DNA of 64,000 nucleotides from positions 5,516,001 to 5,580,000 of the forward strand of contig NZ_CP108454.1 of the NCBI RefSeq assembly GCF_036240795.1. The letters are read 5' to 3'. The stretch is from Streptomyces sp. NBC_01268. GTDB taxonomy: Bacteria; Actinomycetota; Actinomycetes; Streptomycetales; Streptomycetaceae. Below the pieces are notes generated by a model. It was not told the DNA's origin. It saw only the letters and a program-made list of their open reading frames with translations, and did no database searches. The translations under genes and the position numbers were made by a program. Below are positions 6,524 to 61,049 of this stretch, piece by piece. The stretch's first letter is position 1. Every line of letters starts with the position of its first letter.

Positions 6524-7156
6524 ATGGCGCAGCAGGAGACGGACCAGCAGGTCGAGAACGACGGTTTCGTCGTGGACACGGAGGAGTGCGAGGAGCGTGA
6601 GCTCGCGCACCGTGAGCGGGGCACCTCGCGTCCGATCACGGTCTTCGGCAACCCCGTGCTCCACCGGGAGTGCAAGGACGTCACCGAGTTCGGCGACGAG
6701 CTGGCCCAGCTGATCGACGACATGTTCGCCAGCCAGAAGACCGCCGAGGGCGTCGGCCTGGCCGCCAACCAGATCGGCGTGGACCAGAAGGTCTTCGTCT
6801 ACGACTGCATGGACGACGAGGGCGTCCGGCACGTCGGCCACGTGGTCAACCCGGTCCTGCAGGAGCTGCCCGCCGACCGCCGCGTCCTCGACGAGTCCAA
6901 CGAGGGCTGCCTCTCGGTGCCCACCGCGTACGCCGAGCTCGCCCGTCCGGACTACGCCGAGGTCCACGGCCAGGACTCCCAGGGCAACGCGATCAAGGTG
7001 CGCGGCACCGGCTACTTCGCCCGCTGCCTCCAGCACGAGACGGACCACCTGTACGGCTACCTGTACATCGACCGCCTCTCCAAGCGGGACCGCAAGGACG
7101 CCCTGCGCCAGATGGAAGAGGGCACCCCGCGCTACCCGGTCGTCGCGAACGACTGA
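6524..7156 (+). CDS. def: peptide deformylase
   Basis: This 210-residue metalloenzyme removes the N-formyl group from nascent proteins. All three deformylase motifs are present: [16 protein letters not shown] (metal-ligand Cys) and QHETDHLYG with the HExxH metal site near residues 171-175. An acidic N-terminal extension of about 35 residues precedes the catalytic domain. It stands alone here rather than beside fmt. A T-rich terminator follows. Confidence 0.95.
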
Positions 7157-7181: not shown

Positions 7182-7224
7182 GGGCCCCGCTCGTTTGACT
7201 ACGAGCTGGGCCCGTTCTGTTTTT
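7182..7224 (+). terminator. terminator after def
   Basis: A hairpin with stem 7182-7194 against 7201-7213 (two 6-base runs separated by one mismatch, 6-base loop) is followed by GTTCTGTTTTTG. The T-rich tail is unusually clear for this genome. It marks the end of the core region before the accessory segment. Confidence 0.8.
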
Positions 7225-7232
7225 GCGAGCTG

Positions 7233-7586
7233 TTAGGTGGCGCGCTTGATCTCGATGGCGAGGGCTCCGAGGGCTTCCTTATCGGGGCCGTAGATCGTGC
7301 GGATGTTGGCGAGTTGCTGGTCGCGGGTGGCGGTCGGGTTGCTGTTGGACGGGCCCTCGCCGTCGAGGAGGGCTTCGAAGTCGGGGTACTCGGTGACCCG
7401 GAGGACCTCGACATCGCAGGTCTCGTCCGTGCCCTTGATGCGGAAGCGGATGGTGTCGCCGGCGGCGAGGTCCGCGAGGTGCGGGTACTTGACCCGCACT
7501 TCGATGGTCTTGGTGCCTGCGGCGACGAGTTCGAAGTACTGGCGGTAGAGGTTGAGCTCGCGGACGCGGGCGGTGCGGTCGGTCAT
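7233..7586 (-). CDS. ASCH-domain protein
   Basis: This 117-residue protein matches the ASCH fold throughout. It has an N-terminal ELNLYRQYFELVAAGTKTIE segment with the conserved Lys/Glu-bearing loop, a GDTIRFRI strand and an IYGPDKEALGALAIEIKR C-terminal strand. ASCH domains are small beta-barrels related to PUA and are linked to RNA binding, RNA cleavage or removal of N4-acetyl groups from cytidine. The ATG at 7586 overlaps the stop of the upstream synthetase-like gene (ATGA), so the two are translationally coupled. A role on tRNA or another RNA is inferred from that partnership. Confidence 0.8.
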   Translation of the reverse strand: MTDRTARVRELNLYRQYFELVAAGTKTIEVRVKYPHLADLAAGDTIRFRIKGTDETCDVEVLRVTEYPDFEALLDGEGPSNSNPTATRDQQLANIRTIYGPDKEALGALAIEIKRAT

Positions 7587-8698
7587 CGGGAGGGAACGCT
7601 CCTGGGGGACGGTGCGGTGATCAGGCGGCCGATCTCGGCGGCCGAGTACGAGCGGAAGAAGTGGCGGGGGTCGGAGAGCAGCGTCTCGGTCATGGCGAGC
7701 AGTTGGTCGGCGTACTCGGTGACGGTGCCGGGCCACTGCCGGGTGTCGAGCATCCAGGGGGCGGCTCCCTCGGGCAAGGGGGCACGGCCTTCTCGTATGA
7801 GGGATTTCGACAGCTTGGCGCCGGTGTCGGTGACGACCTGGGGGCAGAACAGGCGGGCCGGGAGCTGGGTGCGTGTGAGGCCCACGGCCTGGAGGGCCTC
7901 GTCGACGAGGTGTGAGCCGAAGACCCAGTCGCCGCCCTTGATCATGACGTGCAGTGTGCCCTGGGGACTGGTCAGGGCGAGTTCCTTGACCAGGTTGCGG
8001 TAGAGGGTGGCCAGGTCGAGGTAGCCGCCGGTGGTGGGTGTGAGGGTGGCCTCGTACGGGCCGTGGTGGAGGCAGACGGCGGAGATTCGCGCCGACTCGG
8101 GGTTAGCGAGATGGACCCGGGTGCGTTCGGCGTGCTTCTCGGCCCAGCCACAGCCGGGGTGCGGGCAGGGGACGCGGAGGTGCGGGGTGCCGGTGGAGGG
8201 GGCGAGCCACCAGCGGGCGGCGTCGATGCGGGGGAGGAGCCGGAGCCACGTGCGGCGGTAGTGCTTGCTGGCCTGTTGCTGTGTGTACGTCTCGATGTGG
8301 TGCGGGATGCCCAAGAGCCTGGACAGAGTGGTGAAGAGGGGCTGGTAGAGGGTGGTGACGAGGTCGATCAGGGCCTGCTCGCCGAGGGCTTGGGCGTAGG
8401 CGCGCTGGTAGCGGTGGCCGCTGACCGGGTCGGTGGCCAGCTCGTGCGGGGCGTTGTCGAGGGCACTGAACAGCACCTCGGTGGGGAGGCCGAAGCGGTC
8501 ACGCAGGCGGGCGGCCATGGCGAAGGCCAGGGACTGCACGAGTGAGGTGCCGATGTGCGGGGCGCCGTTGATCTGGGTGCCGACGACCAACACGATGCGC
8601 TCGGGCGGGGCGGCCAGGATGCGCGGGGTCAGGACGTCCTCGGCGTGGAGGAGGGCGTTGGCGAGGACGGTGTTCGGCGAGACGGGGTGCGTGGTCAT
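7583..8698 (-). CDS. class I lysyl-tRNA-synthetase-like catalytic domain, no anticodon-binding domain
   Basis: This 371-residue protein has a class I aminoacyl-tRNA synthetase core. It shows a HIGH-type GAPHIGT motif (residues 48-51), a KMSKS-type KLSKS motif (295-299) and a zinc-type insertion with Cys178, Cys183 and Cys209. The overall pattern, including the GGDWVFGSH segment before KLSKS, is closest to class I LysRS. True class I LysRS proteins exceed 500 residues and carry a C-terminal helical anticodon-binding region; here only about 70 residues follow KLSKS. It may aminoacylate a small molecule, a protein or a tRNA fragment. ATG 8698 has an AGGGGCC ribosome-binding sequence. Confidence 0.75.
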   Translation of the reverse strand: MTTHPVSPNTVLANALLHAEDVLTPRILAAPPERIVLVVGTQINGAPHIGTSLVQSLAFAMAARLRDRFGLPTEVLFSALDNAPHELATDPVSGHRYQRAYAQALGEQALIDLVTTLYQPLFTTLSRLLGIPHHIETYTQQQASKHYRRTWLRLLPRIDAARWWLAPSTGTPHLRVPCPHPGCGWAEKHAERTRVHLANPESARISAVCLHHGPYEATLTPTTGGYLDLATLYRNLVKELALTSPQGTLHVMIKGGDWVFGSHLVDEALQAVGLTRTQLPARLFCPQVVTDTGAKLSKSLIREGRAPLPEGAAPWMLDTRQWPGTVTEYADQLLAMTETLLSDPRHFFRSYSAAEIGRLITAPSPRSVPSR

Positions 8699-8708
8699 GT
8701 TGTGGCCC

Positions 8709-9161
8709 CTAGGGTTCGGTGCTTCGGTCGAACGCAGCCCAGACGCACTTTCCGGGCCCCGTCCTCTCCTTCACGCCCCAGCTGTTCGCCGTAGCCGAGA
8801 CGATCAGCAGGCCGCGACCGTCGACGGCGGACTCCTCGGGAACGCGCTGCGTCGGCGTGTTCTCGCCGCTGTCGTGGATCTCGATCCGCAGTTCCTCGTC
8901 GAGGGACTCGACGCGTACGAGGACGAGGCGGCCCACGGGCGCCCCGTGGAGCACGGCGTTGGTGACGAGTTCCGAGGTGCACAGCCTCATGTCGTCGAGG
9001 CGGCTCGTCTCACCCCATTCGGTCAGCGTGGCGGCGACGAAGTCGCGAGCGGTACGCGGGGTGGTCCGGCGGCGGGGGAACAGCATGGTGCGGTGCCGAC
9101 CCGTGCCCGGAAGGAGGTCCGGGGCGGCGTCGGTCGCCTGGTTGGTGAGTCTGCTTGCCAT
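8709..9161 (-). CDS. RsbW-like ATP-binding regulatory protein (GHKL family)
   Basis: This 150-residue single GHKL ATPase domain has the N-box ELVTNAVLHG, the G1-type box IHDSGEN and the G2-type box DGRGLLIVS. Such stand-alone domains in Streptomyces act as anti-sigma factors or serine kinases, and their partners are usually unlinked. It heads the three-gene minus-strand operon; the synthetase-like gene starts 10 bases after its stop. ATG 9161 is preferred over an upstream TTG at 9173. Confidence 0.8.
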   Translation of the reverse strand: MASRLTNQATDAAPDLLPGTGRHRTMLFPRRRTTPRTARDFVAATLTEWGETSRLDDMRLCTSELVTNAVLHGAPVGRLVLVRVESLDEELRIEIHDSGENTPTQRVPEESAVDGRGLLIVSATANSWGVKERTGPGKCVWAAFDRSTEP

Positions 9162-9265
9162 GGTCAACAGCAAAGCGGCTTAACTCATTTGGGTCGGGAG
9201 CCAGCACGGGGGCCAAGGCAGGGGCCACTATGGGGGCCAGAGGTCACGTGTTCCTGGGGGACGGC

Positions 9266-10595
9266 ATGGGCGACACCGGGATCGGCGCCTTGCTCGTCCG
9301 GCTGCGCACCGCGCGCGGCTGGAGCCAGCAGAGGGTCGCCGACGAGTACAACGTCCTGGAGGGGCGTTCGGCGAAGACCGGCAAGGAGATCGGACGCTAC
9401 GAGCGCGAAGCGCGGATCCCCATTCCCTATGCCCGGAAGTACCTGGCGCAGGTCTTCGGTATCGACGTCGCGCAACTCGACCAGGCTGTGGCAGTCAGCA
9501 AGGGCCGGCGGGACGACCCCGGCGGCGGCGAGGTCGCGCTGCCCGCGCCGGCGCCTGCGGCTTCTTGTGCCGGTGGTGATCGCCTGTCCGAGGACGCAGC
9601 GCGTTCGGCGGACTTCGCCCGCTTCATCGCGCAGCGGAACGCCGACGAGTTCGTCGTAGAGCAGCTGGAGGCGGATGTCGGCAGGCTCGCCCGTACGTAC
9701 GTCAGCCACCCGTTGATGGAGCAGTACGTCGAGATCAGGCGGATACGGGACGGGGTGTTCGAGCTGCTGCGCGGGCGCCAGCACCCCCGGCAGACCACTG
9801 ACCTACCTCTCCGCTGCTCGCCTCTGCGGCCTGTCCGCGCACGTCTGCCTCGATCTCGGCGACTACGACTCTGCCGCCACCCATGCCCGTACCGCACGGG
9901 CCTGTGCCGAGGCGGCCGGGCACGAGGGGATGCTGGCCTGGGTACGGGCCGTGGAGTCGTTGATCGCGTACTGGACAGGGCGGTACGAGCAGGCGGCCCG
10001 GCTGGCCCAGGTCGGCCGGCGGCACAGGGCGAGCGGCAGCATCGGCGCACGGCTGGCGAGTCTGGAGGCGCGGGCGTTGGCGATAGTCGGCGACTCGGCA
10101 GGGGCGCTCGCCGCCCTGGCGGACGCCGAACGATCCCGTGAGGCGGTCTCGGGGCGGGACGAGATGCCAGGAGTCTTCGACTTCCCAGTCGCCAAGCAGT
10201 TCGCGTACGCCGGAACGACCCTTCTGGCCGTAGGCGGACAGCAGCACGTTCAGAAGGCCATCTTCAGCGCGGGGACGGCAATTCGGCTCTATCGCAGTGC
10301 GGATGGTGATGACCAGTCCGTGGGAGACCTCTTCGCCTCGCACCTCGACCTCGCCCGCGGCCATCTGCTCCTGGACGACCTGGATGGCGCCGAGGAGATG
10401 CTCGGCTTTGTCCTTATGGCCTCGCCGGAGCGCATGTCGGCCAGCATCGTGCGCCGGCTCACCGTTCTCGGGCGGGAGCTGGAAGGGCCGCAGTACGGTG
10501 GAGCCGCTCAGGCGGTACACCTGCGCGACCGACTCCAGCACACGGCCGTCCGTGCGTCCCTTCCCGCCGCCCATCCTCCGGAGTTGCCGACGTGA
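9266..10595 (+). pseudogene. XRE-family regulator with TPR domain, frameshifted
   Basis: The N-terminal part (from ATG 9266, after a GGGGGAC ribosome-binding sequence) carries an XRE helix-turn-helix (ARGWSQQRVADEYN, then IGRYEREARIP). The frame is lost at about 9800-9804. Reading continues as the expected alpha-helical TPR region only after a +1 shift, so that QTTD is followed by YLSAARLCGLSAHVC and the rest up to 10595. This fits a 2-base deletion in a leucine codon, or an assembly error. The intact protein would be about 440 residues. It is divergent from the GHKL operon, and its stop overlaps the methyltransferase start (GTGA). Confidence 0.75.
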
Positions 10596-11410
10596 CCGAC
10601 CTGTCCGCCGCCCACGATGCCGCTGTCACCGACCGGGCCCGCCTGGCGGGCAGCGCCTACAACGGAGACCGGGACCTGGCTGCACGGCAGTCGCTCTACC
10701 AGTGGCAGACGCCCCGGTACGACCTGCCCGGCCTCGTCGCCGATCAGCTGGGCGACGTACGCGGCCGGGTTGTCGACATCGGCTGCGGCAACGGCAAGTT
10801 CATCCAGCGACTTCGACAGGACCGTCCGGACCTGTCCCTGCTCGGCCTCGACATCGCGCCCGGCATCCTTGCCGGCGTCCCCGGCCCGGTCGCCGTGGCG
10901 GACGCCACGCGGCTTCCGCTGGCGGCCGGGAGCGTCGACGCCGTTCTCGCGCTGCACATGCTCTACCACGTACCCGACATTCCCCAGGCGGTCAGGGAGC
11001 TGGCCCGGGTCGTGGCCAGCGACGGGCTGGTGGTCGCCTCCACCAACAGCGACCGCGACAAGGCCGAACTCGACGACCTCTGGCAGCGGGCCGCCGGCGA
11101 CGTCCTCGGCATCGATCGTGGTCCGGCCCGCATCTCGCTCAGCGCCCGCTTCTCCCTGGAGAAGGCCCCGGCCTTCCTCCGTGAGGAGTTCAGCCGTGTG
11201 GAGGTCGCCGAACTGCCGGGGACCATCACGGTCCGCGACCCCGAGCCGGTCATCGCCCACATGGTCTCCTATCGCGCCTGGTCGGATCAGCACGACGTGC
11301 CCTTTGACGCGACCATTGACCGGGCCCGTGCCCTCGTCGCCGGCCACATCGACCGCAACGGCGCGTACGAGATCACCTGCCTCGGCGGCATCCTCGTCTG
11401 CCAGCGGTGA
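10592..11410 (+). CDS. class I SAM-dependent methyltransferase
   Basis: This 272-residue Rossmann-fold methyltransferase has motif I VVDIGCGNGKF near residue 60, an acidic LGLDIAP strand end, and the ALHMLYHVPDIPQAVREL segment typical of the UbiE/Methyltransf_11 group. The substrate is unknown. The GTG start overlaps the stop of the XRE/TPR gene by four bases, so the pair forms an operon. The neighbourhood with an aminoacyl-tRNA-synthetase-like protein and an ASCH protein makes an RNA or aminoacyl-type substrate possible, but this is inference only. Confidence 0.85.
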   Translation: MTDLSAAHDAAVTDRARLAGSAYNGDRDLAARQSLYQWQTPRYDLPGLVADQLGDVRGRVVDIGCGNGKFIQRLRQDRPDLSLLGLDIAPGILAGVPGPVAVADATRLPLAAGSVDAVLALHMLYHVPDIPQAVRELARVVASDGLVVASTNSDRDKAELDDLWQRAAGDVLGIDRGPARISLSARFSLEKAPAFLREEFSRVEVAELPGTITVRDPEPVIAHMVSYRAWSDQHDVPFDATIDRARALVAGHIDRNGAYEITCLGGILVCQR

Positions 11411-11421
11411 CTGGCACTCAC

Positions 11422-11453
11422 CACGTTCATGGACGCATGCACGAATGAACGTG
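11422..11453. repeat. 9-base inverted repeat upstream of the TnpB-like gene
   Basis: CACGTTCAT (11422-11430) and ATGAACGTG (11445-11453) form perfect arms around a 14-base centre that itself contains GCATGC. It lies just after the methyltransferase stop and 110 bases before the TnpB start. It could be a terminator, an operator, or the hairpin of an IS200/IS605-type left end. Confidence 0.5.
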
Positions 11454-11562
11454 TGTTCCCGTGTTCGCGCATTCTGGTGAGCCTGTGCGCAATGTGCCTG
11501 GGTGTACGGGGTGCCCTCTAGGTTGGGCGTGTTGGGCTCGGGTCGCGCCAAGGGAGACGGTT

Positions 11563-13572
11563 GTGCTGGCTGCTCAAGCGTCACAGCGGTTCCGGGGGCG
11601 GAATCGGGGGGTGAAGTGGACCAAGCCCGACGATGGAATGGTGTCGGTAATGGTGCTGCCTCTGGCCGTCACCGACCCTGCTGACCTGGAGCGGCTGGAG
11701 AAGCTGTTCGGCGCGATGTGGAGCATCAAGCGGGCACTCCAACGGGACGCCCGCGCCAAAGTGGACGCATACTGGGCCGCCAGGCATGAGCGGGGTCGCG
11801 AGGGAGCGAACAGAGTGCGGCAGCGCCTTGGGCTTACCCGAGAGGCGTTGGAGCGGCGCGCGTACAAGCACTTGGAGGACGCTGGGCATCTGAAGCACCA
11901 CGTCTCCAAGGCATTGGCCATGCACATGGCTGACGAAGTATGGAACGGCGTATCCCGCCATCTGGTCACGGACTCCACCGGCCAGAGGCACGGACGCCCG
12001 AAGGTCGGTCGATGGCACGACTTCACGCGGATTCCAGGCCGAGCCCGGTCCCACACCACCGCGAACAAGTGGGAGACGTTCCGGCTGGCCGGTACTTTGC
12101 GGGGCCACACCAAGGCCTACACGGGCTGCAACCGGCATGAGCTGATGCAGCCCCGCCGGATGCCGAAGCCTTCGAAACCTACCGGCAACGTGCCCACGGG
12201 CAGGAACACAGCCTCGGGCAAGCCAGGAACGCGGAAGGCGACCTGGTGGGACCACACCGGCCCGCTTGCCGTGGTTTTCGTCGGCGGCCCCGACTCTCAG
12301 CGGGGCGAGCTCGTGCTCCCCGTTCGCGTCCCGCAGGGCCCAGGCCAGCGGGCCCACGCCGAGCACTTTCTCGCCGCCTCTGGGCGTTGGCACAAGGTGG
12401 ACCTTGTCCGTCGCCACAAGGCTTCCGCGTCAGGCGGCTGGGTCTATGAAGCGCACCTGATGGTCCTCGGTCCCGGATATGCGTCTCCCGCCGTACAAGA
12501 GATGCGCAGGCAGGCGACTGCTCTGGACAGGGTCGGAGGCGTGGATGGCAACGTGTCCAACCTGTCGATCGTGTCCTTCCCGACCAGCTTGGATCCGGTC
12601 GACGGCGGCCCGGCGTCCTCGGAGATCACGCTCACCAACGCGGAAGAGAGCCGGCTGGAGACGGAGGCGAAGAAGCGGCGGGGGCGTGCGCGGGCGCTGG
12701 AACGCTCCCGTCGTTCCACCAACCGCACGCAGTACGGGTTATCGAAGAAGCAGCAAAGCCGGGCCGAACGAAGGCTCTGCAAGGGGTTGCCTGCCAAGTC
12801 CGTCGCTGTGCCCGGCGGCGCCCGTGCGGCACGCTCCGATGGGGTGCCGAAGCGGGCACACAAGCGCGACCTTCTGTCTGCCAGATACCTTGAGCTGCGC
12901 GCCCGGCAGGCCGAAGAAGCGACCAGCGCCGCCGAGTACCGGCGCTACCGCGCTCGCCAGCTCGCGCGCGAGATCGTCGCTGTCCACAGCCCGAACCTAA
13001 CGGTGGAAGATTGCGACGTCCGTACCTGGTATCGACTGTGGGGGAAGAGCCTGTCGCGGACCACACCAGGCTTGCTCATCAAAGCCCTGGAGATCGAATG
13101 TCGGGCAGCAGGCGGCCGTCTTGCACGCGTCTCCACCTGGTCCACCGCTCTGTCTCAGCACTGCCTGTGCGGCGAGCGTGTCACGAAGACCCTGCGAGAC
13201 CGCGAACACAGATGCACCGCCTGTGGCCTCGTAGGCAAGCGCGACCTCGTATCCGCCGCTCTTGCCGCGTTCGTCCGCCCTACCGACGCGGCAGTTCCTA
13301 CCACCACGCGCCTGGATACCATCGCGTCCCGAATCGCGCAGATCGTCTTCAACGAAGGGCTGGAAGAAGCCCTGCGGGAGTCAACCACACCGTGCCAGAA
13401 CATCCCTCGGGGTGCTGGCCGCGTGGCAGTCCCACGGCAACGTGGCACCTCTGCTCCCCGAACCGCCGAACGGCGAGGCCGAGCAACCCCAGATGAGACA
13501 CGCCCTCGGCGTGACCACACTGGAGCGCCCGGCCCCCGCCACGGCTGCGATCCGCAGCTCACCCTTTGGTGA
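11563..13572 (+). CDS. TnpB-like RNA-guided nuclease / IS605 OrfB family protein, large variant
   Basis: This 669-residue protein has a TnpB/Cas12-type C-terminal half. It shows a RuvC-I Asp328 (GGVDGNVSNLSIVS), a RuvC-II Glu482 (LTVEDCDVRTW), a zinc ribbon (HCLCG and CTACG pairs) and a RuvC-III Asp561 (GKRDLVSAALA). All three catalytic acids are present. The 327 residues before RuvC-I exceed the roughly 190 of ordinary TnpB. GTG 11563 is chosen because AGGGAGA precedes it by 6 bases. Residue 393 is encoded by TTA (12739-12741), so translation should need the bldA tRNA. No TnpA gene and no CRISPR array is nearby. The basic tail of about 100 residues may overlap a guide-RNA scaffold. Confidence 0.75.
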   Translation: MLAAQASQRFRGRNRGVKWTKPDDGMVSVMVLPLAVTDPADLERLEKLFGAMWSIKRALQRDARAKVDAYWAARHERGREGANRVRQRLGLTREALERRAYKHLEDAGHLKHHVSKALAMHMADEVWNGVSRHLVTDSTGQRHGRPKVGRWHDFTRIPGRARSHTTANKWETFRLAGTLRGHTKAYTGCNRHELMQPRRMPKPSKPTGNVPTGRNTASGKPGTRKATWWDHTGPLAVVFVGGPDSQRGELVLPVRVPQGPGQRAHAEHFLAASGRWHKVDLVRRHKASASGGWVYEAHLMVLGPGYASPAVQEMRRQATALDRVGGVDGNVSNLSIVSFPTSLDPVDGGPASSEITLTNAEESRLETEAKKRRGRARALERSRRSTNRTQYGLSKKQQSRAERRLCKGLPAKSVAVPGGARAARSDGVPKRAHKRDLLSARYLELRARQAEEATSAAEYRRYRARQLAREIVAVHSPNLTVEDCDVRTWYRLWGKSLSRTTPGLLIKALEIECRAAGGRLARVSTWSTALSQHCLCGERVTKTLRDREHRCTACGLVGKRDLVSAALAAFVRPTDAAVPTTTRLDTIASRIAQIVFNEGLEEALRESTTPCQNIPRGAGRVAVPRQRGTSAPRTAERRGRATPDETRPRRDHTGAPGPRHGCDPQLTLW

Positions 13573-13588
13573 AATGACGGACCGAGTC

Positions 13589-14599
13589 TTAGAAGTCCTC
13601 GTCCAGGTCCACCGAGCCCTCGACCGCCACCTGGTAGGCGGACGGGCGGCGCTCGAAGAAGTTGGTCAGCTCCTGGACGCCCTGGAGCTCCATGAACGCG
13701 AACGGGTTCTCCGAGCCGAACACCGGCGCGAAGCCCAGGCGGGTGAGCCGCTGGTCGGCGACGCACTGGAGGTACTCGCGCATCGACTCGGTGTTCATGC
13801 CCGGCAGGCCCTCACCGCACAGGTCGCGGCCGAACTGGAGCTCCGCCTCGACGGCCTCCCGCAGCATCGCGGTGACCTGCGCCTGGAGCTCGTCGTCGAA
13901 GAGCTCGGGCTCCTCCTTGCGGACGGTGTCCACGACCTCGAAGGCGAAGTTCATGTGCATCGTCTCGTCGCGGAACACCCAGTTGGTGCCGGTCGCCAGG
14001 CCGTGCAGCAGACCGCGGGACCGGAACCAGTACACGTACGCGAAGGCGCCGTAGAAGAACAGGCCCTCGATGCAGGCGGCGAAGCAGATCAGGTTGAGCA
14101 GGAAGCGCCGGCGGTCGGCCTGCGTCTCCAGACGGTCGATCTTCTCGACCGAGTCCATCCACCTGAAGCAGAACTGCGCCTTCTCGCGGATCGACGGGAT
14201 GTTCTCGACGGCCGCGAAGGCCGCCGCCCGGTCCTCCGGGTCGGGGAGGTAGGTGTCGAGCAGCGTCAGATAGAACTGGACGTGCACGGCCTCCTCGAAG
14301 AGCTGGCGCGAGAGGTAGAGCCGCGCCTCGGGCGAGTTGATGTGCTTGTAGAGCGTCAGGACCAGGTTGTTGGCCACGATCGAGTCGCCGGTCGCGAAGA
14401 AGGCGACCAGGCGGCCGATCATGTGCTGCTCACCCGGGGTGAGCTTGGCGAGGTCGGCGACGTCCGAGTGGAGGTCGACCTCCTCCACGGTCCAGGTGTT
14501 CTTGATCGCGTCCCGGTAGCGCTCGTAGAAGTCCGGGTAGCGCATGGGACGGAGGGTCAGTTCGAAGCCCGGGTCGAGCAGGTTCTTGGTCTCGGACAT
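13589..14599 (-). CDS. nrdB: ribonucleotide reductase small subunit (class Ia)
   Basis: This is a ferritin-like R2 subunit of 336 residues that generates the tyrosyl radical for NrdA. Metal-ligand segments are visible: FFATGDSIVANN, FEEAVHVQFY and DETMHMNFAFEV. The C-terminal acidic tail VDLDEDF is the peptide that docks on R1. The ATG at 14599 overlaps the nrdA stop; a GTG one codon upstream is possible. It ends 16 bases from the convergent TnpB-like gene. I recall a third gene, nrdS, after nrdB in S. coelicolor; none is present here. Confidence 0.95.
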   Translation of the reverse strand: MSETKNLLDPGFELTLRPMRYPDFYERYRDAIKNTWTVEEVDLHSDVADLAKLTPGEQHMIGRLVAFFATGDSIVANNLVLTLYKHINSPEARLYLSRQLFEEAVHVQFYLTLLDTYLPDPEDRAAAFAAVENIPSIREKAQFCFRWMDSVEKIDRLETQADRRRFLLNLICFAACIEGLFFYGAFAYVYWFRSRGLLHGLATGTNWVFRDETMHMNFAFEVVDTVRKEEPELFDDELQAQVTAMLREAVEAELQFGRDLCGEGLPGMNTESMREYLQCVADQRLTRLGFAPVFGSENPFAFMELQGVQELTNFFERRPSAYQVAVEGSVDLDEDF

Positions 14600-16962
14600 C
14601 ACTGGCAGGCCTCGCAGGACTCGGGGTTCTCAAGGGAGCAGGCGACGGCGTCGGGGTCGGCGACCTGCTGGACGGGGATGGTGGCGGCGGCCTGCGCGGC
14701 GCGGGCGATCCGGGTCGCCGGGCGCGAGCGCAGGTAGTACGTGGTCTTCAGGCCCTGCTTCCAGGCGTACGCGTACATCGACGACAGCTTGCCGATGGTC
14801 GGCGTCTCCAGGAACAGGTTCAGCGACTGCGCCTGGTCCAGGAACGGGGTGCGGGCGGCGGCCATGTCGATCAGGCCGCGCTGCGGGATCTCCCAGGCCG
14901 TGCGGTACAGCTCGCGCACTTCGGCCGGCACCCAGGTGAAGCCGGCCACCGAGCCGTTGGCGTCGCGCAGCGCCTCACGGGTCTGCGCGTCCCACACGCC
15001 GAGGCGCTTCAGCTCGTCCACGAGGTACGAGTTGACCTGGAGGAACTCGCCGGACAGCGTCTCGCGCTTGAACAGGTTGGAGACCTGCGGCTCGATGCAC
15101 TCGTAGACGCCGGCGATCGAGGCGATGGTCGCGGTCGGCGCGATGGCGAGGAGGAGGCTGTTGCGCATGCCGACGGCGGCGATCCGCTCGCGCAGCGCGG
15201 CCCAGCGCTCCGGCCAGTTCAGCTCGACGTCGAAGTGGTCCGGGTGCAGCACACCGCGGGCCGTGCGGGTCTTGTCCCAGGCGGGCAGCGGGCCGTTGCG
15301 CTCGGCGAGGTCGGCGGAGGCCTCGTACGCGGCCAGCATGATCCGCTCGGCGATCCGGGTGGACAGCGCGCGGGCCTCGGCCGAGTCGAAGGGCAGCTTC
15401 AGCTTGAAGAAGACGTCCTGGAGGCCCATCGCGCCCAGGCCCACCGGACGCCAGCGGGCGTTGGAGCGGCCGGCCTGCTCGGTCGGGTAGAAGTTGATGT
15501 CGACGACCCGGTCGAGGAAGGTGACGGCGGTGCGCACGGTCTCGTCGAGCCGCGCCCAGTCGATCTGCCCGCCGTCGGCTCCTTCCCGGACGAAGGCGCC
15601 GAGGTTGACCGAGCCGAGGTTGCAGACGGCCGTCTCGCCGTCGTCGGTGACCTCGATGATCTCGGTGCAGAGGTTCGAGGAGTGGACGACGGAGCCCGGC
15701 TCGGCGGTCTGGTTGGCGGTCCGGTTGGAGGCGTCCTTGAAGGTCATCCAGCCGTTGCCGGTCTGCGCGAGGGTGCGCATCATCCGGCCGTACAGGTCAC
15801 GGGCCGGCATGGACTTCTTGGCCAGGCCCGCCGCCTCCGCCTTGTGGTACGCGGCGTCGAACTCCTCGCCGTACAGGTCGACCAGCTCGGGCACGTCGGC
15901 CGGCGAGAAGAGCGACCACTCGGCGTCCGCGTTGACCCGGCGCATGAACTCGTCCGGGATCCAGTGCGCCAGGTTCAGGTTGTGCGTACGGCGGGCGTCC
16001 TCGCCGGTGTTGTCGCGGAGCTCCAGGAACTCCTCGATGTCCGCGTGCCAGGTCTCCAGGTAGACCGCGGCGGCGCCCTTGCGGCGGCCGCCCTGGTTCA
16101 CCGCGGCGACGGAGGCGTCCAGCGTCTTCAGGAACGGCACGATGCCGTTGGAGTGCCCGTTGGTGCCGCGGATCAGCGAACCCCGGGCGCGGATGCGGGA
16201 GTACGACAGGCCGATGCCGCCCGCGTGCTTCGACAGGCGCGCGACCTGGTGGTAGCGGTCGTAGATGGAGTCCAGCTCGTCCTGCGGGGAGTCCAGCAGG
16301 TAGCAGGAGGACATCTGCGGGTGGCGGGTGCCGGAGTTGAAGAGCGTGGGGGAGGAGGGCAGGTAGTCGAGCCGGCTCATCAGCCCGTACAGCGCCGCCA
16401 CCTCGTCCACGGCGCGCACCGACTCGTCCTCGGCCAGACCGCACGCGACGCGCAGCATGAAGTGCTGCGGGGTCTCGATGACCTGGCGGGTGATCGGGTG
16501 CCGCAGCAGGTAGCGGGAGTAGAGGGTGCGCAGGCCGAAGTAGCCGAAGCGGTCGTCACCGGCCGCGTCGATCAGCGCGTCGAGGCGCGCGGTGTGCGTG
16601 GCGACGAACGCGGCCGTGCGGTCGGCGATCAGGCCCTCGCGGTGGCCGACGGCGACGGAGGCCGAGAAGGAGAGCGCGCCCTGGCCCGCCGCCTCGTCGG
16701 TGATGGTGAGGGTGAGCAGCCGGGCGGCGAGCCGGGAGTACGCCGGGTCCTCGGCGATGAGTCCGGCGGCGGCCTCGGTGGCCAGCTCGCGCAGCTCCGC
16801 CTCGTCCGAACCGGCGCTGCGGCCGCGCAGGGCGGCGGCGGCGACCTTGCCGGGGTCGGTGTCCGGGAGGTCGGCGGTGAGATCGGTCAGGACCCGCAGC
16901 AGCACGGTGCCGGGGCCGTCGGTCTCGATCGCTGCGGCCGGATCGGCGGGCGCGATGGTCAC
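14599..16962 (-). CDS. nrdA: ribonucleotide reductase large subunit (class Ia)
   Basis: This is the 787-residue catalytic R1 subunit, which reduces ribonucleoside diphosphates. It carries the QMSSCYLL and NLCTEI segments with active-site cysteines, the ALNLGSVNL-type block (VCNLGSVNLGAFV), and a C-terminal CEACQ with the CxxC pair that shuttles reducing equivalents. GTG 16962 is chosen because the family N-terminus begins here; a longer open frame upstream runs into the riboswitch. An adenosylcobalamin riboswitch lies in the leader, so expression should fall when B12 (needed by the alternative class II enzyme) is available. Confidence 0.95.
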   Translation of the reverse strand: MTIAPADPAAAIETDGPGTVLLRVLTDLTADLPDTDPGKVAAAALRGRSAGSDEAELRELATEAAAGLIAEDPAYSRLAARLLTLTITDEAAGQGALSFSASVAVGHREGLIADRTAAFVATHTARLDALIDAAGDDRFGYFGLRTLYSRYLLRHPITRQVIETPQHFMLRVACGLAEDESVRAVDEVAALYGLMSRLDYLPSSPTLFNSGTRHPQMSSCYLLDSPQDELDSIYDRYHQVARLSKHAGGIGLSYSRIRARGSLIRGTNGHSNGIVPFLKTLDASVAAVNQGGRRKGAAAVYLETWHADIEEFLELRDNTGEDARRTHNLNLAHWIPDEFMRRVNADAEWSLFSPADVPELVDLYGEEFDAAYHKAEAAGLAKKSMPARDLYGRMMRTLAQTGNGWMTFKDASNRTANQTAEPGSVVHSSNLCTEIIEVTDDGETAVCNLGSVNLGAFVREGADGGQIDWARLDETVRTAVTFLDRVVDINFYPTEQAGRSNARWRPVGLGAMGLQDVFFKLKLPFDSAEARALSTRIAERIMLAAYEASADLAERNGPLPAWDKTRTARGVLHPDHFDVELNWPERWAALRERIAAVGMRNSLLLAIAPTATIASIAGVYECIEPQVSNLFKRETLSGEFLQVNSYLVDELKRLGVWDAQTREALRDANGSVAGFTWVPAEVRELYRTAWEIPQRGLIDMAAARTPFLDQAQSLNLFLETPTIGKLSSMYAYAWKQGLKTTYYLRSRPATRIARAAQAAATIPVQQVADPDAVACSLENPESCEACQ

Positions 16963-44702: not shown

Positions 44703-47654
44703 TTAACTCTCGCCATTCAGCTCCTCAAGTGCCCGCCGCGCCTCCCCCTCCTCGTGCGCCGCCCCGATGTCCCTTGCCGCCGTCCATGCGCCCTTGTAGT
44801 GCAGGGCGGCCTCCGTCACGCGCCCCACCGCTCGGAGGGCGTCGCCGATGCTGTGGAGCGTGGCGGCCGAATTGCGCAGGTCGCCCACTCCTCGGAAGAC
44901 CGAAAGCGCCTCGCGGTACAGCGCCAGCATCTCGTCCGATTCGCTCTCGGCGATCATCGTGTTCGCCAGGTTCACTTGGGCGGACGCCCGCTCCGTATCG
45001 CTTCCGACTCTTTCGAGAAGGGCGAGCGATTCCAGGGCGACGCGGCGCGCGGTGTTCCGCTCACCGAGGTGGATGTGTAAATCCGAGAGATTGTTGAGGA
45101 CGCGGGCGACTTCCCGCTCGTCGCCGCACGAACGGAATCCCTTCAAGGCGGAGTGGAATGATTCCTCGGACGCCTCGTAGTCCCCGATGAAAAGATGCGT
45201 GATCCCCATGTTGTTCCGGCAGCGGGCTATCTGCCAGGCGTCGCCGGTCCGTCTCCGCAATTCCAGCGTCGCGCTCTGGAAGGTCAGCGCGGTGCCGTGC
45301 CGGCCGAGGTGCCAGTGGATGACGCCGAGGAGGTGCCGCACCTCGGCCTCCGTCTCCGGGTCGCCGATCGCGCCGGCGAGGTCCAGGGCGCGGTGCGCGC
45401 TCGACAGGGCGCGGGAGTAGCGGCTCGCCCGGGACTGGGCGCCGGCCAGGTCGATGAGGGCGGACGCCTCTCCCCGCGCGTCGCCCACCGCGCTCCAGTG
45501 GCGTGCGGCGGGGCCGTGCATGCGCTGCGCCTCGCTCCAGTGGCCGTCCTCCTCCAGGAAGCCGGCCAGGGCCCCGGCGAGCAGCGCCGCTTCGAGCGGG
45601 CGCCCGCGTGTGCGCGCGCACTGCTCGGCGGCGACGAGACCGGCGCGCTCCTGGGAGAGCCAGTCCCGCGCCTCCTGGGCGTCCCGCCACTCGGGCAGCG
45701 CGAACGACGGACCGCCCTCGGTGGATGCCGCCGCGGGTTCGTACCGGAATCGGCGCGGATGGATCAGACGCGCGGCCCGCCGGGATGCGTGCAGATAGAA
45801 ATGGATCAACCGGCCCTGTGCGAGATCACGTTCGCCGGGCGGGTCCTCCATCGAGGCGAGCATGCGGGCGTATTCACCGACGAGGTCGTGGAACTGGAAT
45901 CTCTCCGGCGCAGGTTCGGACAGCAGATGATCGTCGAGGAGGGAGTCGAGCGCGCGTTCCGTCGCGTCAAGGGAAAGGCCGGTGAGAGCGGCCGCGGCAT
46001 GGGGGCCGAAAGTGGCTCCGAAGTGCAGGCTCAGCAGGCGGAACGCCTTCCTTCGCTCTTCAGTCAGAGCGTGGTACGACATTTCGAATACCCGGGCGAT
46101 CTCCCGGAATCCGTCCCGGATCTCCGCGAGCCTGCCGGGTGTTCTCATGAGTTTCTCCACCAGGTGGGAGGTGGTCCACGAGGGCCGGGACGCCAGGCGT
46201 CCGGCGGCCAGTTCGACCGCGAGCGGCAGGTGCCCGCAGAGCCGGACGATGCGCGCCACGTCCCCCGGGTCCCGCACCCGGTCGTCGCCGACGAGGCGCC
46301 GGAAGAGGGCGGCGGCGTCGGTGGCGGGCAGGATGTCGAGGAAGAGGGAGCGGATCCCGGGCAGTCCGGTGAGCCTCCGCCGGCTGGTGACGATCACGAG
46401 GGACGGGGAGCTGCCGGGAAGGAGCGGCCGTACCTGCTCCGCGTCGGCCGCGTCGTCGAGGACGATCACGGCGCGCCGGTTGCTGAGCAGGGTGCGCCAG
46501 AGCGCGGTGCGTTCGTCGGCGTCCGACGGGATGGAGTCCGCCGCCACCCCGAAGACCCGCAGCAGGGTGAAGAGCGCCGCCTGCGCGCTCAGGCCCTGCC
46601 GACCGGGGGCATGGGTGCGCAGATCGAGCAGGACCTGCCCGTCGGGGTAGCGGTCGGCGAGCAGGCGGGCCGCGTGCACGGCGAGGAGGGATTTCCCGAC
46701 CCCCGGCATTCCGGCGATCGTCTGGAGGGCGATGACCCCTCCGCCGCCCGCCCCGGCGGGGTCCGCCGCCTCGGCGTCTCCCAGGGCGCCGACGTTCGTG
46801 ATCAGCCTGAGTTCCCGTTCCCGGCCGACGAGGTCCCCGTGTCCGGGCAGGGTGTGGGGTGCGGCGGGGGAGGGCGCGGACGGCGCCGTTCGCGGCAGCA
46901 GCTCGGCGACGGGCGCGCGGTCCAGGACCAGCCGGTGGAGCCGGGACAGGGCCTCTCCGGGGTCCGTCCCCAGCTCCTCGGAGAGCCTGCGGCGGACCGA
47001 GTCGTACGTGCGCAGGGCGTCCCCCTGCCGTCCGGAGCCGTAGGCGGCCGTCATCAGCTGGGCCGCGATGGTCTCGTCCGTCGGGTGCGCGTCGAGCAGC
47101 GCCGTCAGGTCGGGGACGAGCTCGGCGTGGCGTCCGAGGCCCAGCTCGATCGCGGTCCGCGTCAGCGTGGCGGCGAGCCGCTTCTCGGTGAAGTGGGTCC
47201 GCGTCCCCTCCGCCCACAGGCCGGTGAGCCCCGCGAGCGGCTCGCCGCGCCACAGTCCGTCCGCCTCGGTGAGGCGCTCCAGCGCACCGGCGGTGTCCCC
47301 GCCGCCGGCGAGCGCGCGGGCCTCGTCGGAGAGGCGCCGGAAGCGGTGCCAGTCCACCAGGTCCGGGTCGATCTCCAGGGTGTACGCGTGCGCCCCTTGG
47401 AGCAGCTGCGCGGGGCACGCGGCGGTCCGCAGGCGGCGCCGGATGCGCGCCGCGTAGACGTGCAGGCTGGCGCGCGGCTTCCGGGGCGGCCGGTCGTCCC
47501 ACACCCGGTGCACGAGGGTGTCGAGGGTGACGGGGTGTCCCGCGTCCAGGGCCAGGGCGGTGAGGGTCAGCCGTTCCTTCGGTGTTCCCGGCGTGCCGCG
47601 GGTTCCGTCCAAGCGGAATTCGACTGGCCCCAGCAGGAGTATTCCGAAGTCCAC
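44703..47654 (-). CDS. AfsR-like SARP regulator with NB-ARC and TPR domains
   Basis: This is a 983-residue STAND regulator. Domains in order: an OmpR-type winged helix (about 1-95), a BTAD domain (about 95-245), an NB-ARC ATPase with Walker A GMPGVGKS and Walker B AVIVLDD (about 280-560), and a C-terminal TPR array. The layout equals AfsR, a pathway or global activator of secondary metabolism. GTG 47654 is used because the DNA-binding domain begins there; no start upstream is credible. It is divergent from a second NB-ARC/TPR gene. No biosynthetic cluster is adjacent. Confidence 0.88.
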   Translation of the reverse strand: MDFGILLLGPVEFRLDGTRGTPGTPKERLTLTALALDAGHPVTLDTLVHRVWDDRPPRKPRASLHVYAARIRRRLRTAACPAQLLQGAHAYTLEIDPDLVDWHRFRRLSDEARALAGGGDTAGALERLTEADGLWRGEPLAGLTGLWAEGTRTHFTEKRLAATLTRTAIELGLGRHAELVPDLTALLDAHPTDETIAAQLMTAAYGSGRQGDALRTYDSVRRRLSEELGTDPGEALSRLHRLVLDRAPVAELLPRTAPSAPSPAAPHTLPGHGDLVGRERELRLITNVGALGDAEAADPAGAGGGGVIALQTIAGMPGVGKSLLAVHAARLLADRYPDGQVLLDLRTHAPGRQGLSAQAALFTLLRVFGVAADSIPSDADERTALWRTLLSNRRAVIVLDDAADAEQVRPLLPGSSPSLVIVTSRRRLTGLPGIRSLFLDILPATDAAALFRRLVGDDRVRDPGDVARIVRLCGHLPLAVELAAGRLASRPSWTTSHLVEKLMRTPGRLAEIRDGFREIARVFEMSYHALTEERRKAFRLLSLHFGATFGPHAAAALTGLSLDATERALDSLLDDHLLSEPAPERFQFHDLVGEYARMLASMEDPPGERDLAQGRLIHFYLHASRRAARLIHPRRFRYEPAAASTEGGPSFALPEWRDAQEARDWLSQERAGLVAAEQCARTRGRPLEAALLAGALAGFLEEDGHWSEAQRMHGPAARHWSAVGDARGEASALIDLAGAQSRASRYSRALSSAHRALDLAGAIGDPETEAEVRHLLGVIHWHLGRHGTALTFQSATLELRRRTGDAWQIARCRNNMGITHLFIGDYEASEESFHSALKGFRSCGDEREVARVLNNLSDLHIHLGERNTARRVALESLALLERVGSDTERASAQVNLANTMIAESESDEMLALYREALSVFRGVGDLRNSAATLHSIGDALRAVGRVTEAALHYKGAWTAARDIGAAHEEGEARRALEELNGES

Positions 47655-47904
47655 CGAGCGCCCCCTATCGCCGGTAGGCCCGCACGTGTGTGCCTGCACT
47701 CGCTTGTAGAGGCCAAAGGATGACACGATGCCAACTCGGTCAAAAGATGGCGCCACTCGATCAAATTGCTTGGCCAGAATGATCTGTTGATCTCGATTGA
47801 TCAGAGCGTTCGGTCTGATTTGGGTCAATTGAGGGTAGGGGTCATGCCGTCCAAGAAGGCCAGAGTCATAGGCGCCGACGGACATACGGGGGGAGACGGA
47901 AGAT
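47655..47904. promoter_or_regulatory. AT-rich divergent promoter region between the two STAND genes
   Basis: These 250 bases are much less GC-rich than their surroundings. They contain TTGATC direct repeats at 47787-47792 and 47797-47802 (10 bases apart) and further GATC/TCAATT variants. SARP proteins bind short direct repeats spaced about one helical turn apart, so this is a candidate target of the adjacent SARP. Confidence 0.45.
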
Positions 47905-50478
47905 ATGGAACCCGTGACGGCTCCACGGCTCACCACTGCCCTGCTCCACGGGGCGGCACGCCCCGAAATGTGGCGCGTTCTGGCCGACCGGCTCAGGGAT
48001 CTCGACACGGACCCGGCGGTCGCCGATCTCTTACGCGGCGGGCCGACGGCCCATCCCGCCACCCGCGCGGAACTGGCCGGGCGGCTCGCGAGCGCCGCGG
48101 CCACGGACCCGCGCCTCGCGGGCGTCCTGGGGGACTGGGCGGCCACGGTCCTGGAGGGAGGGGGGAGGGCGGACGGCTCGGGGGGAGCGGAGGGCGCGCC
48201 GTCCGGCCCGGGCGCCGGCGCAGCGGCAGTGCCCGGCGCACCGGGAGTGCCCGGCGCACCGGGAGTGCCCGGCTCACCGGGAGTGCCCGGCTCACCAGAG
48301 GCGCCCGGCACGACCCGTACGGCCAACGCCGTGACCGGTGCCGCCACCGTCCTCGGCCCGGTCGTCCAGGCCGGCGAGGTCCAGGGCGGCGTCCACATCC
48401 ACGTACCGCCGGTTCCCGCCGCCCCGCCCCGAGCGGACGCACGGCAGGTGCCCCGGCAACTCCTTCCCGATCCCGAGCACTTCACCGGCCGCACGGACGC
48501 CCTCGCGCTGCTGGACGCCCTGCTTCCGCAGCTCGGCGCCCGCCCCCTCCTCACGGTCGTCAGCGGACCCGCGGGGGTCGGCAAGTCCTCGCTCGTCACC
48601 CGCTGGCTGCACGGCCTCGGCGACCGCTTCCCGGACGGGCAGCTCTACGCGGACCTGCGCGGCCACCTCCCCGACGGCGGGCCCGCCGCCCCCGGCGAGA
48701 TCCTCGGACGCTTCCTCAGGGCGATCGGTGTCAAGGAGGTCCCCGCGGAACCCGCCGAGTCGGCGGCCCTGTGGCGCTCCCACACCGCGGGGCTCCGGCT
48801 CGCCGTCATGCTCGACAACGCCCTCAGCGCCGCCCAGGTCCGCCCCCTGCTGCCCTCCTCCCCGGGCAGCCTCGTCGTCGTCACGAGCCGCCGGCGGCTC
48901 ACCGCCCTCGGCATCGACGGCGCCTCCTTCCAGCAGCTCGGCGTGCTGTCCGCCGCCGACGCCGTCCGGCTGCTCGCCGGGCGGATCGGCGCCGACCGGG
49001 TACGGCGCGAACCCGAGGCCGCCCAGGAGGTCGCCGCCCTCTGTGCCGGACTGCCGCTCGCCGTCTCCGTCGCCGCGGCCCGGCTGGCCGCCCGACCCCA
49101 GCAGTCCCTTTCCGCCATGGCCGGGGCGCTGGGCGGATCCGGCGCGTCCCGGCTCGCCGCGCTCAGCCTCGGCGGGGAAGCCGCGGTACGGCTCGCGCTC
49201 GACGCCTCGTACCACCAGCTCACCCCCGAACTCGCCCGTGGCTACCGCAGACTGGGCCTGCCGCCGGTCACCGTCCTCAACGGGCCCGTCGCCGCCGCGG
49301 CCTGCGCGGTCGGGCCCGACGAGGGCGACCGGCTCCTCGACGACCTCGCCGAGGTGAGCCTCCTGGAGGACCTGGGACCCGACGACACCACCGGCCTCGG
49401 GCGCTACCGCTTCCACGACCTCGTCCGCGCCCACGCCGGTCAGCTCGCCGACGCCACCGAGGAACCGGAGGCCCGCAGGGAGACCGTCCGCAGGGTCGTG
49501 GACCACTACCTGGCCGCGGCGACCGCCGCCGAGGAACTGCTCACGCCCAGCCATCGCAGCCTGCGCCGCGACTACGCCTTCCCGCCCCGGCACCGGCCGC
49601 CCTTCGACACCGCCGCCGGGGCGCTGGGCTGGCTCGACACCGAGCGCTTCCATCTGATGGCCGCGCTGCGGACCGCCGCCGAACACGGCTGGGACGCCAC
49701 CGCGTGGCAGCTCGCCGACGCCATGTGGCCGCTCTTCCTGCGCCTGCGCCCGTACGACCTGTGGGTCGAGGCGCACGTGATCGGCCGCGCCGCCGCCGAG
49801 CGGGCCGGGGACCGGCGCGGGCTCAGCCGCATGCTGACCTCGGGCGGCGTCGGGCTGCGCAACGCCGGCCGCTCCGACGAGGCCGTCGCCTGGTTCACCG
49901 AGGCGGTGCACGGCGCCCGCGCGGACGCCGACCGCAAGGCCGAGGCCCAGGCCCTGCACGGCCTCGGCCAGTCGCACCTGCTGGCCGGCCGCTTCGACGA
50001 GGCCACCGCGTACCTGACCGAGGCCCTCGCCCTGCGCGAGGCCATCGGCTACCGGCGCGGCGCCGCGATGACCCGGATCTGCCTCGGGGACGCCGCTCTG
50101 GCGGCGGGCCGCCCCGGGGACGCCCTGACCCCGCTCGCCGAGGCCCGGGCCACCCTCCTGGCGGTGCCCGACCCGTACGACGCGGCCCGCGCGCTCGCGC
50201 TCCTCGGGCTGGCGCTGGCCCGCGCCGGGGCGCGCCACACCACCGGCGAGGACGCCGAGACGGTGCTCCTGCGGGCGCTCGACGAGTTCGCGGCGACGGG
50301 ATCGGTCCACTGGCGGGCCAGGACCCTGGACATGCTGGGCGAGAGCGCGGCCCTGCGCGGCGACCCGGCCGCGGCCAGGGACCGGTACGAGCGGTCCCTG
50401 GCGCTCTACGAACCGGTCAGCGAATCCGACGCGGCCCGCCTCCGCACCCGCCTCACCGAGCTGGGCCCCCTCCCCTGA
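47905..50478 (+). CDS. NB-ARC/TPR STAND protein without DNA-binding domain
   Basis: This is an 857-residue protein. An N-terminal effector-associated helical region (about 1-90) is followed by a Pro/Gly/Ala-rich linker with a short tandem repeat, a VQAGEVQGGVHIH segment, an NB-ARC ATPase (Walker A GPAGVGKSSL, Walker B LAVMLDNA) and a C-terminal TPR array. The VQAG-GGVHIH segment is one I recall before NB-ARC domains in actinobacterial STAND proteins. Residue 43 is encoded by TTA (48031-48033), so translation should depend on bldA tRNA and be growth-phase gated. It may signal to, or compete with, the divergent SARP. Confidence 0.82.
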   Translation: MEPVTAPRLTTALLHGAARPEMWRVLADRLRDLDTDPAVADLLRGGPTAHPATRAELAGRLASAAATDPRLAGVLGDWAATVLEGGGRADGSGGAEGAPSGPGAGAAAVPGAPGVPGAPGVPGSPGVPGSPEAPGTTRTANAVTGAATVLGPVVQAGEVQGGVHIHVPPVPAAPPRADARQVPRQLLPDPEHFTGRTDALALLDALLPQLGARPLLTVVSGPAGVGKSSLVTRWLHGLGDRFPDGQLYADLRGHLPDGGPAAPGEILGRFLRAIGVKEVPAEPAESAALWRSHTAGLRLAVMLDNALSAAQVRPLLPSSPGSLVVVTSRRRLTALGIDGASFQQLGVLSAADAVRLLAGRIGADRVRREPEAAQEVAALCAGLPLAVSVAAARLAARPQQSLSAMAGALGGSGASRLAALSLGGEAAVRLALDASYHQLTPELARGYRRLGLPPVTVLNGPVAAAACAVGPDEGDRLLDDLAEVSLLEDLGPDDTTGLGRYRFHDLVRAHAGQLADATEEPEARRETVRRVVDHYLAAATAAEELLTPSHRSLRRDYAFPPRHRPPFDTAAGALGWLDTERFHLMAALRTAAEHGWDATAWQLADAMWPLFLRLRPYDLWVEAHVIGRAAAERAGDRRGLSRMLTSGGVGLRNAGRSDEAVAWFTEAVHGARADADRKAEAQALHGLGQSHLLAGRFDEATAYLTEALALREAIGYRRGAAMTRICLGDAALAAGRPGDALTPLAEARATLLAVPDPYDAARALALLGLALARAGARHTTGEDAETVLLRALDEFAATGSVHWRARTLDMLGESAALRGDPAAARDRYERSLALYEPVSESDAARLRTRLTELGPLP
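48228..48310. repeat. 18-base tandem repeat within the NB-ARC gene
   Basis: The unit CCGGGAGTGCCCGGCKCA (K = G or T) occurs three times at 48241-48294 with partial copies on both sides. It encodes GVPGAP/GVPGSP hexapeptides in the linker between the effector region and the ATPase. Confidence 0.88.
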
Positions 50479-55335: not shown

Positions 55336-55385
55336 ACTGGGCTCCGTTCTGACTCGACACCAGAACAGTAGCCGGACACGGCAAA

Positions 55386-55435
55386 GAAGCCCCCTCCCGT
55401 CCGCCCGCATATCGCGGGGGACGGGAGGGGGCTTC
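55386..55435. terminator. terminator after the prophage lysis genes
   Basis: Perfect 16-base arms GAAGCCCCCTCCCGTC / GACGGGAGGGGGCTTC with a further inner CCCGC/GCGGG stem lie three bases after the collagen-like gene stop on the minus strand. Confidence 0.9.
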
Positions 55436-55437
55436 GT

Positions 55438-56339: not shown

Positions 56340-56353
56340 GCGTAACGCTCCGA

Positions 56354-56575: not shown

Positions 56576-56588
56576 GGGAACTCCTAGA

Positions 56589-57533: not shown

Positions 57534-57594
57534 GGCGACCTCCAGACATGAGAAAGGCCCCGGCCAACAGGCACGGGGCGGGAAGCGGAAAGGG

Positions 57595-57852: not shown

Positions 57853-57866
57853 ATTGGACCTCCAGG

Positions 57867-58316: not shown

Positions 58317-58325
58317 GAGGCCTCC

Positions 58326-61040: not shown

Positions 61041-61049
61041 AGTTACCTC

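Follow-up and report, generated by a model that had tools for sequence, protein, structure and literature searches.

A class I synthetase-like protein and an ASCH-domain protein form a conserved, mobile gene pair in Streptomyces and may act as one aminoacyl ligase

The window analysed here is a stretch of 64,000 nucleotides from Streptomyces sp. NBC_01268 (contig NZ_CP108454.1, positions 5,516,001 to 5,580,000), whose 8.5 Mb genome is a single contig. Between the genes for peptide deformylase (def) and the ribonucleotide reductase small chain (nrd) it carries a set of genes that includes a class I synthetase-like protein, here called aaRSL, and a protein with an ASCH domain (Table 1). In a first-pass annotation these two and a GHKL ATPase were read as one coupled operon, and the spacing bears this out: 10 bp separate GHKL from aaRSL, and aaRSL overlaps ASCH by 4 bp. 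A second coupled unit, an XRE/TPR regulator and a methyltransferase, was also proposed; its genes overlap by 4 bp, but the reading frame of the regulator is broken in this assembly. The ASCH, GHKL and methyltransferase genes and a TnpB-like open reading frame (ORF) lie at the places named, with Pfam matches above the cut-offs (38.8 bits against 21.2 for ASCH, 50.3 against 27.4 for GHKL, 65.1 against 21.2 for the methyltransferase and 30.9 against 26.3 for the TnpB-like ORF). No RNA family was detected at E 0.1 between 6 and 15 kb of the window.

Table 1. Features of the def–nrd interval and its flanks (positions in the window; aa, amino acids)
Feature	Position	Strand	Basis
ASCH-domain protein, 117 aa	7233..7586	-	PF04266 above cut-off
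aaRSL, class I synthetase-like, 371 aa, catalytic domain only	7583..8698	-	predicted fold, motifs
GHKL (RsbW-like) ATPase	8709..9173, start tentative	-	PF13581
XRE/TPR regulator, NsdA-family-like, frame-broken near 9800	9230..10595, start inferred	+	NF053720 on C-terminal piece
S-adenosylmethionine-dependent methyltransferase, optional member	10592..11410	+	PF08241
TnpB-like ORF, 703 aa	11461..13572	+	PF07282 above, NF040570 below cut-off
Insert extent against the near-empty def–nrd site of genome G015	7193..13589		blastn boundaries
Left flank: peptide deformylase (def)	6524..7156	+	PF01327
Right flank: ribonucleotide reductase small chain	13589..14602	-	PF00268

The linkage of aaRSL and ASCH extends well beyond this locus. 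A pattern scan across 84,980 species genomes turned up 107 relatives, and at 79 of the best 80 of these 107, which were the loci analysed, ASCH lies downstream of aaRSL on the same strand; the exception (L097) stops at a contig edge. A survey of 295 same-genus genomes, which shares genomes with the 80-locus set, found some aaRSL match in 46, many of them fragments. Near-full copies, defined as those with at least 290 residues covered, number 34 in 32 genomes, and 33 have, on the same strand and no more than 300 bp away, an ASCH gene of at least 60% identity; the only copy without one (G093) is divergent, at 48%. The linkage count used 36 aaRSL rows (the remainder being shorter fragments) and all 36 methyltransferase rows. 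For ASCH, five fragments of fewer than 60 residues were omitted, which left 47 of the 52 rows with at least 60% identity. Fisher tests gave 2e-30 for ASCH and 3e-11 for the methyltransferase, values which assume that the genomes are independent, which they are not. A larger locus set has ASCH at 129 of 141 loci, a figure not used as the headline since its loci repeat genomes; the 12 loci without ASCH are L097, three small fragments (L123, L124 and L127) and eight divergent ASCH-less loci from five genomes. The genes of the core are thus not mostly single, and their linkage is above chance, contrary to the outcome that the first pass had named as refuting its proposal.

In some relatives the two proteins are joined. 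A single ORF of ~460–510 aa encodes aaRSL and ASCH in Kutzneria, a Pseudonocardiales metagenome-assembled genome, Kibdelosporangium, an Amycolatopsis plasmid and two viral contigs, and also in the same-genus genomes G641 and G101 and in family f17 genomes which group with the fused set. When 150 rows were thinned to 112 at 97% identity and placed on a tree, the 13 fused ones required four changes. The fused label is doubtful for L118 and L125, which are frame-broken, and for L061, which may reflect a single indel; two fused groups are therefore regarded as firm. The deep order of the tree is unsure because long branches converge near the root. A family of ~300 aa is encoded upstream of the fused gene at L108, L109, L110, L129, L132 and L138, of which the two tested copies (L110 and L129) lack a Pfam match. 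A P-loop gene also precedes several fused genes, and the single copy tested, in L129, is an AAA_28 match. Pairwise dN/dS against five relatives is 0.11–0.22 for ASCH, 0.18–0.26 for aaRSL, 0.10–0.17 for the methyltransferase and 0.13–0.48 for GHKL; on these values all four genes are maintained by purifying selection, while the regulator is broken in the window.

Although the window aaRSL has no match in Pfam, NCBIfam or PADLOC, its predicted fold is that of the class I synthetases, which agrees with its earlier designation as a tRNA-synthetase-like protein. It carries the motifs PHIGT (HIGH-like) and AKLSKS (KMSKS-like) and a zinc-like set of residues, C178, C183, C209 and H212; PHxGT and AKLSKS are invariant in all 34 aligned aaRSL sequences. 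Class I lysyl-tRNA synthetase (LysRS; PF01921, PDB 1irx) has the same catalytic-domain fold, a similar HIGH/KMSKS signature and a comparable inserted, cysteine-rich, zinc-like segment. In contrast to LysRS, aaRSL is paired with ASCH, has no Pfam match and lacks the C-terminal anticodon-binding domain: it ends at residue 371, and the alignment halts at residue 338 of the 507-residue LysRS chain. None of the 34 members of group A1 matched PF01921 at E 10, and a Macrococcus-type relative scored 23.8 bits, below the cut-off of 27. The host carries its own class I LysRS elsewhere in the genome.

Other proteins of this kind act outside translation. MshC and BshC are class I synthetase-like ligases that act in the synthesis of low-molecular-weight thiols; their similarity to aaRSL is one of fold, with no family match, and they differ from it in that aaRSL has an ASCH partner and a mobile-element location. 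GluQ-RS/YadB, like aaRSL, is a catalytic domain without an anticodon-binding domain, and it acts outside normal charging. Unlike aaRSL it is derived from GluRS and specific for tRNA-Asp, and we know of no ASCH partner for it. LysU, PoxA and LysX are class II proteins. A table in the available part of PMC9437257, where GluQ-RS/YadB is also mentioned, places these three under LysRS.

ASCH is a PUA-superfamily domain, described in the available part of PMC7641849 as nucleic-acid or modified-base binding and as occurring in predicted toxin–antitoxin and restriction contexts, XRE fusions among them. The window protein matches phrog_19935, ‘RNA-binding protein’, at E 9.1e-44. The octapeptide GxKxx[ETS]xR is conserved in it (GTKTIEVR), and the variable place is Glu in all 26 rows selected for alignment. 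Both the domain and the octapeptide are shared with YqfB-type ASCH amidohydrolases; in E. coli YqfB, Thr24 is the proposed nucleophile and the Thr24Ala protein is inactive (PMC6972931, part available). The window ASCH, in contrast, has Glu at the Thr24 position and so lacks the Thr-Lys-Glu triad of YqfB, and it scores 14.2 bits against the NF003443 cut-off of 93. The residue at the nucleophile position makes N4-acylcytidine amidohydrolase activity unlikely, and the idea that ASCH erases an N4-acyl-cytidine made by aaRSL was dropped as a lead. A Zymomonas ASCH protein has been described as a ribonuclease (PMC9599836, part available). Five loci with ASCH paralogues at 40–49% identity were examined (L178, L179, L180, L181 and L182). 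All three that were profile-tested (L178, L179 and L181) encode a NUDIX domain within the ASCH ORF, which gives a hint, if only a hint, of a nucleotide ligand for ASCH. At L181 methyltransferase, ASCH and NUDIX form a single ORF, while L178 and L179 have an adjoining methyltransferase–NUDIX or NUDIX gene. A two-gene unit of XRE/TPR regulator and ASCH, with overlapping genes and without aaRSL, is duplicated at L182 (1196–3003 and 4717–6491).

The best reading of these features is that aaRSL and ASCH together constitute one ATP-dependent aminoacyl ligase with a probable nucleotide-like acceptor, carried as mobile accessory cargo; its probability is put at roughly 0.5. The pair would work as one ligase whether made as two proteins, as here, or as one chain, as in Pseudonocardiaceae and some others. 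The LysRS-like class I catalytic domain of aaRSL would make an amino-acid adenylate and hand the amino acid to an acceptor held by the PUA-fold ASCH protein, most likely a nucleotide, a modified nucleoside or an RNA end. Plasmids, integrative elements and phages would carry the pair as accessory cargo, under interchangeable XRE/TPR-like and GHKL control and with optional tailoring enzymes. The parts of this proposal differ in strength. The linkage and fusion of the two genes, the predicted fold, the conserved motifs, purifying selection and the occurrence on mobile elements are shown, whereas adenylation, the kind of acceptor and a part in conflict with phages or rivals are inferred. ATP-dependent activation of an amino acid by aaRSL is probable; the chances that the acceptor is a nucleotide or RNA are about even, a tRNA in particular is possible but doubtful, and a defence role for the pair is unlikely. 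The first-pass annotation had suggested a tRNA- or aminoacyl-based modification or defence system, which is plausible from the fold and motifs, with the RNA target and the defence role both hypothetical; its label ‘RNA-directed’ was drawn from family names. A more far-reaching version would make the pair a mobile nucleic-acid aminoacylation system of a new class, in which a LysRS-derived domain has exchanged its anticodon domain for ASCH, in cis or in trans, and loads an ASCH-recognised nucleotide or RNA; phages, plasmids and integrative elements would spread it, and the cassette would serve in superinfection exclusion or interference. This version seems quite improbable.

Several observations weigh against the ligase reading. 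The window aaRSL was not placed in any synthetase family by sequence methods, and an hhalign comparison of aaRSL with LysRS, for which the LysRS alignment used was poor, was not significant. PADLOC assigned no family to aaRSL, ASCH, GHKL or, among the companions, either regulator piece. Thirteen of the 47 ASCH copies at 60% identity or more have no near-full aaRSL (six lie beside aaRSL fragments, seven do not), and the ASCH paralogue of L182 stands alone next to an XRE/TPR regulator, without NUDIX. YqfB-type ASCH proteins gave no tRNA binding in gel shifts, according to the available part of PMC9599836. No tRNA gene is consistently linked, such genes being present at 14 of 105 loci scanned and of many kinds; any tRNA target is therefore probably encoded elsewhere. 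A linked cognate tRNA was accordingly rejected as a candidate, two of the 14 loci having the tRNA gene inside aaRSL itself, where it is probably false, and the window having none.

Finally, divergent aaRSL relatives that lack ASCH sit in biosynthetic-looking operons. L137 has ornithine cyclodeaminase/SbnB-family, carbamoyltransferase-family, methyltransferase and ectoine-hydroxylase genes, L135 has AlaDH-like and S-adenosylmethionine decarboxylase genes, and L134 a methyltransferase. These operons, with the Pantoea and Macrococcus-type neighbourhoods described below, are the main evidence for a small-molecule ligase, in which aaRSL, like MshC or BshC, would couple an amino acid with some non-nucleic metabolite and ASCH would bind the metabolite or product, a signal, antibiotic or protectant being made. 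On balance this is unlikely, since the mobile clade to which the window copy belongs is bound to ASCH, described as a nucleic-acid or modified-base binding domain (PMC7641849, part available), and no consistent biosynthetic partner was seen in that clade. The neighbourhood of the window type consists of XRE/TPR regulator and methyltransferase; tested representatives of others have DUF218 and WbqC, an HD/YfbR-like gene or, in L101, a PCMT-like gene. The annotated Pantoea neighbourhood comprises methyltransferase, aaRSL, LOG, DMT and Ham1, and the Macrococcus type has two ATP-grasp genes, aaRSL and, nearby, MFS. A 137-aa ORF adjoining aaRSL in the Macrococcus-type operon was rejected as an ASCH partner, scoring below the best of 60 shuffles in hhalign and having no Pfam match; a 171-aa ORF in L135 outscored all 60 shuffles, though with a weak score, and likewise has no Pfam match. 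The Macrococcoides plasmid of L204, with a distant aaRSL, also bears predicted qacH and cadmium transporter genes.

The presence of aaRSL relatives on mobile elements is extensive. Thirteen plasmid records, 12 of them near full length, come from Streptomyces (8), Amycolatopsis, Prauserella, Pantoea and two Macrococcus-type hosts, and relaxase-cluster genes (one representative tested) lie near 19 of the 80 genome loci. Twelve viral contigs have relatives, all with ASCH adjoining or fused, one being apparently phage Picard itself. Three phage records represent two Streptomyces venezuelae phages, Picard and Mojorita, with the region examined in Picard only. The Macrococcus type is not found in the viral contigs, and phages hold the Picard type only. 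In Picard (KY092480; phrog_35625, phrog_19935 and phrog_12354) a DUF5753 regulator on the minus strand, whose helix-turn-helix (HTH) match falls just under the cut-off, is followed by GHKL, a 160-aa ORF, ‘tRNA synthetase’, ‘RNA binding protein’ and then a serine integrase, these protein names deriving from phage annotation only. The GHKL, aaRSL and ASCH order is that of the window, and the aaRSL is 73% identical; unlike the window, Picard has DUF5753 in place of XRE/TPR, the additional 160-aa ORF and no methyltransferase in the stretch examined. Cargo beside an integrase, the viral, plasmid and relaxase associations and the patchy, often fragmentary presence in the genus would suit a tRNA-directed defence, in which the pair, after infection or derepression, would aminoacylate or modify host or phage tRNA and halt the phage, and would be carried by prophages and integrative elements against rivals. 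Such a role in conflict seems rather improbable: the core is without a PADLOC match and a constant tRNA neighbour, mobile cargo is not only defence, and no paper joining tRNA synthetase-like proteins with anti-phage activity was found in the open-licence literature.

Control of the pair seems to be swapped while aaRSL–ASCH stays, because the five regulator-like gene clusters, one or other of which occurs at 61 of 80 loci, stayed separate under the BLAST limits applied; among the representatives that were tested, a single one has an HTH match above the cut-off. GHKL is probably the regulatory gene of the operon. In the window the regulator occupies two frames owing to a 2-nt difference from all 14 rows compared (12 distinct genomes, two rows being repeats), and one piece matches NF053720 at 54.1 bits, against a cut-off of 75. 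Intact copies are present in relatives, and the break may be either a mutation or a sequencing error. The frequency of these regulators and the GHKL gene in the operon could suggest that aaRSL is a sensor, a receptor for an amino acid, an adenylate or uncharged tRNA that acts via the linked regulators. This is very unlikely, given that the catalytic motifs are invariant and that the regulators vary between groups while aaRSL–ASCH stays.

The remaining genes are less firmly attached. The methyltransferase was expected to occur within 10 kb of the other genes, and this linkage is real but partial: it holds for 13 of the 34 near-full aaRSL copies, each of which belongs to the 20 with 80% or higher identity, while 10 of 23 methyltransferase copies (at least 70% identity) lie away from aaRSL. 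Solved structures gave partial matches to methyltransferases of differing substrates, and PADLOC one match, mad2 (E 7.6e-10). The TnpB-like ORF does lie at the edge of the set but is probably not a member of it, with matches in 0 of 110 aaRSL loci, ~30 of which, at 4 kb, would not reach as far as this gene, and relatives in nine of 101 genus genomes; it is probably an independent hitchhiker. It scores 46.3 bits against the NF040570 (guided_TnpB) cut-off of 100 and matches Cas12f/u models in PADLOC. At L189 (4233–5763) an ASCH remnant directly adjoins an IS605-type TnpB gene; TnpB elements may therefore strike these cassettes more than once.

The site itself was compared in 37 same-genus genomes; in 35 of these, counting that of the window, a single contig carries both def and the reductase gene. 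Because their spacing varies from 73 bp (G015) to 6,996 bp (G011), with 6,438 bp in the window, and because blastn homology to G015 ends near 7192, at a terminator-like hairpin, and restarts at 13590, the description of the set as inserted between two core operons at an exchange hotspot holds. Other occupants, by ORF reading without profiles, include a GlxA-type regulator, a P450 and a terpene-cyclase-like gene; aaRSL, ASCH and the methyltransferase had no match in the 12 other def–nrd intervals examined (of 34). A variable site could have gathered its genes by chance, with no joint function, and this is likely for TnpB and in part for the methyltransferase. For the set as a whole it is scarcely credible, since aaRSL and ASCH are linked at other sites, on phages and on plasmids, and are also fused.

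A search of the open-licence literature (titles and abstract openings) found no published description of any LysRS-like protein of class I that is partnered by ASCH. Synthetase-like ligases outside translation are already known; class I SbzA and class II AcmF are described in natural products in PMC12945691, in the available part of which ASCH does not occur. PHROGs already holds the phage families, named tRNA synthetase and RNA-binding protein, and the proteins are thus catalogued, not explained. A conserved, sometimes fused, phage-borne pair offers a clean experimental handle, and ASCH, whose family has been assigned few functions, gains a fixed candidate enzymatic partner.

Elsewhere in the window, two long divergent AfsR/SARP-like regulator ORFs were seen by ORF reading at 44703–50478 (44703–48599, minus strand; 47905–50478, plus strand). 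Prophage-like late genes occupy the right end (54151–63680), comprising a regulator matching phrog_5823 (54151–55410), an endolysin (56589–57677), a phrog_5313 protein (58326–61040) and a tape measure protein (61050–63680).

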